The notes under the pieces were generated by a model. The model saw only the letters and a program-made list of their open reading frames with translations. It did not search any database and was not told where the DNA came from. From NCBI GenBank assembly GCA_016865035.1, contig CP018227.1:1706001-1770000 (forward strand): a stretch of DNA of 64,000 bases, written 5' to 3'. The stretch is from Kordiimonadales bacterium IMCC3096. GTDB lineage: Bacteria; Pseudomonadota; Alphaproteobacteria; Minwuiales; Minwuiaceae. The position numbers and the translations under genes are program-made. This document shows positions 47,908-56,727 of this stretch, piece by piece. Position 1 is the stretch's first letter. Every line of letters starts with the position of its first letter.

Positions 47908-48037
47908 ATGCCGAGAGCTGGGCTCGCGGATCAGGTCCGCGAGCGGCGTGGTGGGAGGGGGAAGCATTGCTGCTCATCGCTCCCCACCCCACTGACGCTG
48001 TGCCCGGGCTTGACCCGGGTACCCAGCGTGCCGCAGC
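47908..48037. repeat. Two-hairpin repeat, family 2, isolated copy
   Basis: It contains the GCTCGCGGA-TCAGG-TCCGCGAGC hairpin and the CCCGGG-CTTGA-CCCGGG hairpin, ending with CAGCGTGCCGCA, as in the cluster at 55686-56715. It lies between cobT and the convergent DUF962 gene. Confidence 0.9.
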
Positions 48038-49011: not shown

Positions 49012-49097
49012 GACCGTTCCTCCCCTCTCCCCCTCCCGGCCACGCACGCAAGTATCCTGAAACGGGCGGCCTGGAGGGGGAGAGGGGAGGAACGGTC
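49012..49097. repeat. Long-stem palindromic repeat, family 1, copy 6
   Basis: Left arm from 49012 and right arm ending at 49097 pair with three or four mismatches around the CGCAAGTATCCTGAAA loop, which is in the same orientation as copy 1. It lies between the MerR gene and fadA. Confidence 0.92.
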
Positions 49098-49138
49098 CAC
49101 AAACAAGCACGCTACACCTGCGAGGGAGCACCCCCGAC

Positions 49139-52640: not shown

Positions 52641-52716
52641 TCCGTCCCTCTCCCCCTACCGGCCACCCACGCAAGTATCCTGAAAGGGGTGGCCGGTAGG
52701 GGGAGAGGGACGGGAC
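52641..52716. repeat. Long-stem palindromic repeat, family 1, copy 7 (inside the beta-oxidation cluster)
   Basis: GTCCCTCTCCCCCTACCGG and its continuation (52644-52668) pair perfectly with 52687-52711; the loop is the copy-1 type. The change CCTCCC to CCTACC in one arm is matched by GGTAGG in the other, a compensatory change that argues that pairing itself is maintained or that arms are copied from each other. Confidence 0.93.
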
Positions 52717-55220: not shown

Positions 55221-55687
55221 GCGGGCCCGTTCCCAGCTTCCGGCCCGCGACTGCCGCTGACGTTGCCGCCATCGTCGGCCTGCTGGCCGATGACCAGCTC
55301 GGTGCCGCGCGGGAAGACGCCTCCCTGCCCCTCGACGAACGCTACATCCGGGCCTTCGATGCCATCGACCGCGATCCGAACCAGATGCAGGTCGTGGCCG
55401 ATCTGGAGGGCCAGGTTGTCGGCTGCCTGCAGCTCAGTTTCATCCCCGGCCTGTCCTTCATCGGCACCTGGCGCGGCCAGATCGAGAGCGTCCGCATCCA
55501 CAGCAGCATGCGCGGCAGCGGCCTGGGTCAGCAGATGATCACCTGGGCGGTCGGCGTCTGCCGCGAACGCGGCTGCGGCCTCGTCCAGCTCAGCACCCAC
55601 CAGAGCCGCGAAGACGCCGTCCGCTTCTACGAGAAGCTTGGCTTCACCAACAGCCACTTCGGCATGAAACTGTCACTGGACACCTGA
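55217..55687 (+). CDS. GNAT family N-acetyltransferase
   Basis: A 156-residue acetyltransferase. The acetyl-CoA loop reads VRIHSSMRGSGLGQQMITWAV (R-x-x-G-x-G/A), the final strand pair is VRFYEKLGFTNSHFGMKLSL. The GTG start at 55217 overlaps the gcrA stop by four bases, so translation is probably coupled; the frame is open upstream inside gcrA but without homology. The substrate is unknown. Confidence 0.92.
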   Translation: MSGPVPSFRPATAADVAAIVGLLADDQLGAAREDASLPLDERYIRAFDAIDRDPNQMQVVADLEGQVVGCLQLSFIPGLSFIGTWRGQIESVRIHSSMRGSGLGQQMITWAVGVCRERGCGLVQLSTHQSREDAVRFYEKLGFTNSHFGMKLSLDT

Positions 55688-55728
55688 CCCCGGGTACCCA
55701 GCGTGCCGCACCGGCATCGGCGATGACC
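55686..55728. repeat. Family 2 repeat, truncated right end
   Basis: Only the right half (CCCCGGGTACCCAGCGTGCC and following) of the family 2 unit is present, directly after the GNAT stop codon. Confidence 0.85.
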
Positions 55729-55762
55729 TTCGGTCGCGCATCGTGGCGATCCCGGGGATGCC

Positions 55763-55908
55763 GTGCCGAGACCTGGGCTCGCGGATCAAGTCCGCGAGCT
55801 ACGTGGGAGAGAGGTGAAGCGTTTGGTGCTCATCGCTCCCACCCCACCGACGTCGTACCCGGGCTTGACCCGGGTACCCAGCGTGCCGCACCGGCATCGG
55901 CGATGACC
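55763..55908. repeat. Family 2 repeat, copy C
   Basis: A full unit: hairpin GCTCGCGGA-TCAAG-TCCGCGAGC, a spacer with GCTCATCGCTCCCACCCCAC, hairpin TACCCGGG-CTTGA-CCCGGGTA, then CAGCGTGCCGCACCGGCATC. The next copy starts 180 bases further on. The two loop sequences (TCAAG and CTTGA) are reverse complements of each other. Confidence 0.95.
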
Positions 55909-55942
55909 TTCAGTTGCGCGTCGGTGCGAGCCGGGTGACGCA

Positions 55943-56073
55943 GTGCCGAGACCTGGGCTCGCGGATCAAGTCCGCGAGCAACGCGGTGGAAGGGGTGAAA
56001 CGGTTTGTGCTCATCGCTCCCACCCCACCGACGCCGTGCCCGGGCTTGACCCGGGTACCCAGCGTGCCGCACC
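55943..56073. repeat. Family 2 repeat, copy D
   Basis: Nearly identical to copy C over both hairpins and the spacer. It ends about 36 bases before the GIY-YIG coding region. Confidence 0.95.
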
Positions 56074-56109
56074 GTGAGCTCCTGATCGTCAACAGCCCGG
56101 TCACCGGCC

Positions 56110-56400
56110 ATCTCCCGCTACTACGTCTATATCCTCGCCAGCAGGCGCAATGGCACTCTCTACATTGGTGTCAGCCGTGACCTGCGGCGGCGTCTCGGTG
56201 AGCATCGGACGGGATGGTCACAGTTCACCGACCGCTACCAGATCCACCGGCTGGTCTGGTTCGAAACCCACGAGAGCGTGGTCATCGCCCGACAGCGCGA
56301 ACGGACGCTGAAGCACTGGAAACGGGACTGGAAACTTCAACTGATCGAGGCGCGGAACCCCGACTGGCGCGATCTCGCAGGGGAGATCCCGTTCGATTGA
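56110..56400 (+). pseudogene. GIY-YIG nuclease family coding region without a normal start codon
   Basis: 96 codons that read YYVYILASRRNGTLYIGVSR, then DLRRRLGEHRTGW, then RLVWFETHESVVIARQRERTLKHWKRDWK and end NPDWRDLAGEIPFD, a full single-domain GIY-YIG protein of the UPF0213/YhbQ size. The GIY-YIG pair reads YVYIL...LYIGV. Family members start M-x-x-YYVYIL; the expected codon is ATC (56110-56112) and the frame closes at TGA 56083-56085 with no ATG, GTG or TTG between. The gene is therefore silent, uses a rare ATC start, or carries a sequencing error. It lies between family 2 repeats. Confidence 0.8.
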
Positions 56401-56430
56401 GGACGGTTGGTGACAGATGGATCAACGCAG

Positions 56431-56557
56431 TGCCGAGACCTGGGCTCGCGGATCGAGTCCGCGAGCAACGTGGTGGGAGGGAAGGAATTGCTGCTCACCG
56501 CCCGGACCCCAAAAAACGTCGTACCCGGGCTTGACCCGGGTACCCAGCGTGCCGCGC
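56431..56557. repeat. Family 2 repeat, copy E
   Basis: Both hairpins are present; the spacer between them has diverged (CCGCCCGGACCCCAAAAAAC). It begins about 30 bases after the GIY-YIG stop. Confidence 0.93.
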
Positions 56558-56608
56558 CGACATCTACGATGACACTCCAGGGTGGATCGGTACGCGCCGG
56601 GTGACGCA

Positions 56609-56715
56609 GTGTGGGGACCTGGGCTCGCGGATCAGGTCCGCGAGCGGCGTGGGGATGGGGGTTGGGCTACCGGAACTCACCGCCACCCCCCACTGCCGCC
56701 GTACCCGGCTTGCCC
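56609..56715. repeat. Family 2 repeat, copy F (right end truncated)
   Basis: It begins 178 bases after copy E. The first hairpin is intact, the second is cut to TACCCGGCTTGCCCGAG, and the unit stops just before the convergent cysNC stop codon. Confidence 0.88.
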
Positions 56716-56727
56716 GAGCTGCGATCC

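Follow-up and report, generated by a model that had tools for sequence, protein, structure and literature searches.

Within a 64,000-nt stretch of the genome of Kordiimonadales bacterium IMCC3096 (contig CP018227.1, positions 1,706,001 to 1,770,000; hereafter the window), alternating inverted palindromes of two types, A and B (55686-56722), surround a gene for a single-domain GIY-YIG nuclease (56086-56400). This arrangement raises the question of whether the nuclease and the repeats are partners, and what kind of element such a partnership would form. The original prediction was a 180-bp two-hairpin element, itself non-autonomous, and an endonuclease that may move or maintain it. The locus is a CGTC-like REP array with its probable cognate GIY-YIG nuclease, and the fuller reading favoured here, with moderate confidence, is that A, the gene and B form an autonomous mobile element whose nuclease cuts REPs in single strands.

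The repeat array and its genomic family

The array begins immediately after a GNAT-family gene with an end fragment (55686-55757, plus strand), in which half an A palindrome (55686-55702) and a spacer are read directly. Between 55777 and 56645, four B and three complete A palindromes follow in alternating orientation, all located by pattern match: B at 55777-55799 (minus strand), A at 55851-55881 (plus strand, tag CGTC, tail CCAG), B at 55957-55979 (minus), A at 56032-56062 (plus, tag CGCC), B at 56440-56470 (minus, with the tag CGTT on that strand), A at 56517-56547 (plus, again CGTC and CCAG) and B at 56623-56645 (minus). The A palindrome with tag CGCC and the B palindrome with tag CGTT are the left and right ends of the gene-bearing cassette, and a degenerate A palindrome, read directly at 56701-56722 (plus strand, start at ~56701), closes the array. 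The predicted lone unit is also present, as a B palindrome (47922-47944, minus) and an A palindrome (48000-48022, plus) found by pattern match; calculated with DNA energies, the stretch 47922-48022 folds as a cloverleaf (z -6.4). Elsewhere in the window, two long imperfect palindromes (~49018-49098 and 52643-52710) with a common central CACGCAAGTATCCTGAAA stretch represent another, C-rich family.

The B sequence, GCTCGCGGATCNNGTCCGCGAGC, starts at 55777, 55957, 56444, 56623 and 47922, and a chance origin of these matches is excluded (10 matches, from five places on both strands, versus 0.01 expected from shuffles). The A sequence, GTACCCGGGCTTGACCCGGGTAC or a form with one mismatch, starts at 55855, 56036, 56521 and 48000, and its core has four exact and two inexact matches versus 0.53 expected. 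Complete hairpins have a 9-bp stem and a 5-nt loop. Read from the tag, A is CG..-GTACCCGGGCTTGACCCGGGTAC-CCAG and B, on the other strand, is CG..-GCTCGCGGACTTGATCCGCGAGC-CCAG; the two belong to a single REP family, of which they are different sequence types running in opposite directions. The loops are reverse-complementary, as had been noticed, because B is the same kind of element as A, inverted. The regular spacing was likewise borne out: the unit-to-unit distances are 180, 487 and 179 bp, and the 487-bp interval consists of an ordinary unit of ~180 bp plus ~307 bp that carry the GIY-YIG gene.

CGTC REPs are described by Di Nocera et al. 2013 (PMC3733652) as multi-copy palindromes with a short unpaired tag (CGTC, TGTC or CCTC) at one end, a CCA tail at the other, stems of 8-9 bp and loops of 4-5 nt, which occur mostly in alphaproteobacteria, in five phyla and all alphaproteobacterial orders examined, and apparently have no dedicated transposase. 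The repeats studied here are REPs resembling this family in palindrome and tail; they differ from that description in the GIY-YIG gene that stands between them. In the window's Minwuia-like genome (G000, 4.29 Mb, one contig), the common REP pattern has 107 matches versus 3 control matches, with the stem and loop lengths given above, and REPs occupy at least 41 places in the stretches examined. Among 119 copies in those stretches, the tail is CCAG or CCAT in 95 and CCGG in 15, whereas the tag is looser than that of CGTC REPs: CGCC is the commonest (48), ahead of CGTC (19), CGAC (13) and CGAT (10). The CGTC tag, found on two of the three complete A copies of the array, is thus carried by a minority of the copies examined in the genome.

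As with CGTC REPs, the copies occur mostly as inverted dimers: neighbouring REPs in G000 form 38 tails-in pairs, 38 tags-in pairs (62-125 bp apart) and 2 pairs in the same orientation. The tails-in spacing is 53 or 54 bp in 31 pairs, 43 bp in one, 101-103 bp in five and 408 bp in one, the last being the pair that encloses the GIY-YIG gene. The idea of a special 180-bp element is therefore dropped: the unit breaks down into two inverted REPs, and tails-in pairs in this genome usually have a spacing of 53-54 bp. The 101-103-bp spacers resemble the gene-bearing spacer at both ends (CCAGCGTGCCGC.. and ..GCCGAGACCTGG), most closely in the two that flank the gene, and therefore look like gene-less derivatives of it.

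The GIY-YIG gene and its relatives

The frame at 56086-56400 (plus strand, 104 codons from stop to stop) lies between an A palindrome and the next B palindrome and matches PF01541 with 48.2 bits (E = 1.3e-12), the only Pfam family at E ≤ 0.001, which confirms the predicted repeat cluster around one GIY-YIG gene. Genome-wide counting, the first check proposed, gives one standalone GIY-YIG gene above the Pfam cut-off in G000 beside the 107 REP copies; the other PF01541 match above the cut-off has a frame of 666 aa and is taken to be UvrC, and one more match, in a 247-aa frame, falls below the cut-off. The UPF0213 proteins 1zg2 and 1ywl, of similar size, give profile matches over the domain (E = 3e-11 and 1e-7). 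The residues Y5, Y16, G18, R26, H30, E62, K73 and N81 are invariant wherever aligned among 145 sequences including that of the window, and are presumably those of the GIY-YIG active site.

Pairwise dN/dS among the four Minwuia copies is 0.08-0.23, and by this measure the gene is under purifying selection. In the copies of G000, G008 and G004 (these and the other genomes compared, G002-G008, include relatives of the same genus), no ATG, GTG or TTG precedes the motif. At the codon where ATG is commonest, these copies (56110-56112 in G000, and loci L163 and L091) have ATC in G000 and G008 and ATT in G004; of the 144 other members, 119 have ATG, 18 have only GTG or TTG, 4 have none of these and 3 are unalignable there. 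ATC or ATT is, judging from the alignment, probably the start codon in these three Minwuia genomes. A pseudogene, to which the lack of a standard start before the motif might point, is rejected on the dN/dS values and the invariance of the catalytic residues. A non-standard start in a gene under purifying selection may mean low or autoregulated expression.

A homologue in N. gonorrhoeae, 55% identical to the window protein, is flanked by CGTC-ATTCCCGC..GCGGGAAT repeats and stands among dRS3-like repeats. This frame, unannotated in its record, is taken here to be Ssn. Ssn proteins, reportedly the subject of work by Chenal et al. in 2025, are said to be GIY-YIG nucleases of Neisseria that cut single strands at specific sites and whose target is repeated in the genome; Ssn modulates transformation in Neisseria. 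The window protein has the features presumed for Ssn, namely a small, single GIY-YIG domain with an intact active site, a Neisseria homologue among its own repeats and a repeated genomic target, and cleavage is predicted for it. By its homology to the Neisseria protein it is probably of the Ssn type, and with its ~95 residues it most likely acts as an endonuclease on single strands, specific for both structure and sequence. The Ssn family probably already covers the enzyme. On the repeat side, PMC3733652 equates dRS3 of Neisseria with one CGTC REP family. Among the papers searched, none was found that joins GIY-YIG with extragenic palindromic repeats or with dRS3; no priority is claimed for the pairing.

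Pairing of nuclease and repeat across bacteria

Whether GIY-YIG genes are flanked by repeats beyond chance was examined in two sets of loci, with regions of up to 20 kb around the genes. The alphaproteobacterial set covers 57 of the 73 genomes that have the gene, with 60 subfamily genes (three extra from one genome), and adds six genes from the window's family; the multi-phylum set holds the best 79 of at least 557 relatives, ranked by similarity to the query. A locus passes the flank test when the 200 bp before and the 200 bp after the gene have a repeat in common. Two loci with flanks that are too short, L164 (G002, broken frame), and L050 and L058 (long frames) stand outside the test set. 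L171, which is the same place as L163, is excluded from the final flank test, the stem and loop distances, and the residue, dN/dS and untagged-hairpin counts; it is included in the counts of hairpin density, tag orientation and distant flanks.

In the alphaproteobacterial set 53 of 65 loci pass, in the multi-phylum set 66 of 77, and 100 of 123 still pass after proteins that are at least 80% identical are dropped. Among other genes in the alphaproteobacterial regions only 13 of 867 pass, and none of six UvrC genes does. With the duplicate locus counted, 120 of 143 loci pass, versus 1 of 143 for the distant-flank null. The association foreseen for GIY-YIG genes, tested for this subfamily, thus exceeds chance; a partnership between enzyme and repeat is probable, and both may belong to a single mobile element. 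At 23 of the 142 loci, no common flank repeat is found at the threshold. A canonical tagged hairpin, by our own rule, is near the gene at 74 of 144 loci, and the loci that pass without one have longer or diverged repeats. Around eight Bradyrhizobium genes (L174, L176, L180, L190, L194, L196, L216 and L227), a longer branched palindrome keeps the outer pattern of tag and tail; in most of the eight it is CGTGTCCCGGACGCGG..GCCGGGACCCAG.

The hairpins are concentrated next to the gene. Recurrent hairpins occur at 2.49-2.85 per kb within 250 bp of it, on both sides and in both sets, and at 0-0.37 per kb beyond 500 bp, save for one sequence-poor edge bin; hairpins with a (C/T)GTC tag and a CC tail occur at 1.4-2.3 per kb within 300 bp versus 0-0.18 farther away, with the same kind of exception for one sequence-poor edge bin. 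In a search that did not require the tag, GTC is at an edge of 147 of 194 recurrent hairpins within 300 bp; the GTC tag is also on 72 of 155 recurrent hairpins more than 1 kb away. Tagged hairpins stand on both sides at 41 loci; judged by the nearest ones, 26 of these loci have both tags outward, 4 have both inward and 11 have them in a common direction, and the outward share has p = 2e-7 against one quarter. L171 has no tagged hairpin upstream and so is outside these 41 loci. The position of hairpins close to both ends of the gene would also suit a purely regulatory role, as terminators or mRNA structures that insulate a toxic nuclease and limit its expression, and low expression would be in keeping with the ATC or ATT that three Minwuia genomes have where the start codon is usual. 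Such a role is nonetheless very improbable as the whole explanation, for it leaves the genome-wide copies, the common tag and tail, and the matching of repeat to gene unaccounted for.

As controls, seven other standalone GIY-YIG genes were picked by hand; three pass the flank test, and the seven show no peak of tagged hairpins. These genes score below 65 bits, whereas the relatives of the window protein score above 85 bits, among the matches listed. The three that pass (L152, L154 and L157) are perhaps a second GIY group with repeats of its own. On plasmids, the two flanks have a repeat in common at nine of ten named loci, which were chosen from 33 records. Two records filed as plasmids, NZ_CP119142.1 (N. 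gonorrhoeae, 2.17 Mb) and CP090106.1 (S. meliloti, 3.7 Mb), look like chromosomes. On plasmid p1 of Planktothrix agardhii (L343), the homologue has an MmeI-type restriction gene on one side and the DISARM gene drmA on the other, and its two flanks share a repeat. A tree labelled by host phylum has 33 label changes when 'unranked' is counted as a group (minimum 19) and 28 without the unranked rows; few of its forks are resolved, and no firm claim of transfer is made from it.

Within the genus, the type of repeat tracks the gene. A different palindrome, ATCCCCGCN5GCGGGGAT, flanks one GIY gene of G003 and that of G007; when no more than one mismatch is allowed, these two genomes contain it at 6 and 8 sites, respectively, and G000, G004, G005, G006 and G008 at none. 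Among 69 loci, protein distance shows a weak correlation with stem distance (r = 0.19, p = 0.003), which persists once GC is removed (r = 0.18, p = 0.006), and no correlation of protein distance with loop distance, as loop coevolution would give, is found. A class-wide count of one REP type in 241 genomes, which are not phylogenetically independent, finds ten or more copies in 25 of 73 genomes with the gene versus 12 of 168 without it (Fisher p = 3.5e-7; size-stratified p = 2e-4); above 5 Mb the trend is opposite (0 of 10 with the gene versus 4 of 15 without). Additionally, G005, of the same genus, has 84 REPs and no detectable standalone gene. The gene is therefore not needed to keep REPs, as G005 and the 12 gene-less genomes with at least ten copies indicate, and a simple requirement is rejected. 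Of the original prediction, the pairing of nuclease and repeats is supported, and movement by the nuclease would be a further step.

A second pairing involves DUF559 endonuclease genes, which stand between C-rich CCCTCTCCC..GGGAGAGGG palindromes at 24 of 30 loci (null 3 of 30), or at 22 of 27 (null 1 of 27) without three loci that are cut short. The loci are L311 (833-1243) and L313-L342, among them G000:C1:1097527-1097838 (L319), and G000 has one DUF559 gene at E ≤ 1e-10. No paper on a DUF559-palindrome pairing was found among the titles and abstract openings returned by a literature search. The result hints that such pairing may extend beyond GIY-YIG genes. On a broader and more tentative view, somewhat less than evenly probable, the enzymes that palindromic repeat families seem to lack are small single-domain nucleases: GIY-YIG genes would pair with CGTC-type REPs and travel across phyla as REP-gene-REP cassettes, and DUF559 genes would pair likewise with C-rich palindromes; these would be minimal mobile elements apart from the HUH REPtrons and would spread via hairpin cuts in single strands.

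Occupied and empty sites, and a model

Azospirillum lipoferum 4B has the gene between sufB and sufC, with a REP pair on each side of it. The cassette is absent and the sufB-sufC gap is short in A. ramasamyi, A. oryzae, Azospirillum sp. B510, A. argentinense and A. thermophilum; the intergenic DNA of these relatives has diverged, so that exact insertion junctions and target duplications are unreadable. The sufB-sufC interval of Shinella sp. PSBB067 also holds a cassette, in the minimal form CGTC-REP - gene - REP-GACG; its REP is a different one, its protein is only 45% identical to that of the window, and we infer it to be an independent arrival. Six A. lipoferum plasmids together hold the A. 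lipoferum REP at 40 places, and among the plasmids examined no other Azospirillum strain has it at more than four. For Sinorhizobium and Rhizobium plasmids, the matches listed (40 of 134 and 30 of 103 records) include no usable cassette-free sites.

REP places are also polymorphic between species within the genus of the window's organism. The comparison for empty sites proposed at the outset thus finds sites without the cassette in Azospirillum and places without the REPs in this genus. The REP place at 1518125 in G000 has no REP in G008 or G005, and the lone unit of the window is missing in G004 and G005, which have other DNA of ~0.8-1 kb at the site; global alignment of whole REP places gives noisy junctions. 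The array locus is the same in G000 and G008, and an A-gene-B-like cassette is at a different location in G004.

These sites bear on a reading in which the protein is a domesticated Ssn-type nuclease, by which the host trims or limits incoming single strands in natural transformation or recombination, with the REPs as genomic recognition sites and nothing now mobile. The purifying selection on the gene, its shared locus in G000 and G008, and the N. gonorrhoeae homologue among dRS3-like repeats, together with the role of Ssn in transformation, would all suit such a host function. The presence of the gene is patchy within the genus and the class, however, several genes with different repeat types occur in some genomes, five Azospirillum relatives are without the cassette, and the tags point outward. 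Domestication is therefore considered unlikely, though it is the strongest of the rivals to a mobile element.

Synteny with G005 breaks at the array site: what follows the GNAT gene and cysNC in G005 is found side by side in G000, but ~46 kb away. This arrangement looks like what an inversion of ~46 kb would give. The breakpoints of such an inversion (L270, L271 and L292) would be the array (55688-56726) and G000:C1:1808346-1808632, which holds a long C-rich palindrome in G000. The two flanks of the cassette in G004 likewise lie apart in G000, although the right one matches there at only 77% and could be a paralogue. REP arrays at rearrangements are thus seen in two cases, which make no rule. 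Both cases would also fit a reading in which a small nuclease gene persists by hitchhiking in tolerant, recombination-prone REP arrays without acting on the repeats, and most REP places are indeed gene-less, with the nuclease beside a REP at one of the ~41 places examined in G000. This account is improbable, as it is opposed by the excess of flanked subfamily genes (53 of 65) over other genes (13 of 867), by the repeat type that follows the gene within the genus and by the correlation of protein and stem distances.

The mobile-element reading has a known parallel. REPtrons combine REPs with the RAYT tyrosine transposase and stand beside the REPINs in the literature (PMC3733652, PMC2817692 and PMC3116915). 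The present locus is like a REPtron in that an enzyme gene is flanked by REPs that it may move and in that inverted REP pairs have a fixed short spacing. It is unlike one in that the enzyme is a GIY-YIG nuclease and not an HUH tyrosine transposase; no RAYT is found in the gene, whose sole Pfam family at E ≤ 0.001 is GIY-YIG. By analogy, the locus may work like a REPtron with a different enzyme class.

Under the mobile-element reading, the nuclease would recognise the REP hairpin in DNA that becomes single-stranded during replication, repair or transformation, and the cut would fall near the CG.. tag. The A - gene - B arrangement with tags outward would be the autonomous form, and the A-B pairs 53-54 and 101-103 bp apart across the genome would be forms derived from it that lack the gene. 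After a cut at a REP, repair or recombination by the host would place copies of cassettes and REPs at new sites and would also turn REP arrays into rearrangement points. The data show the association, the repeat-gene matching within the genus, the cassette anatomy, the conserved catalytic residues, the purifying selection and the occupied and empty sites; the binding, the cutting, the copying route and the spread of REPs by the nuclease are steps that we infer.

For the CGTC REPs, the gene that lies between repeats at most tested loci is a concrete candidate enzyme. If the proposed mechanism is true, many bacterial intergenic palindromes would be footprints of minimal nuclease-based elements, and REP arrays would have a mechanism by which they act as rearrangement points.
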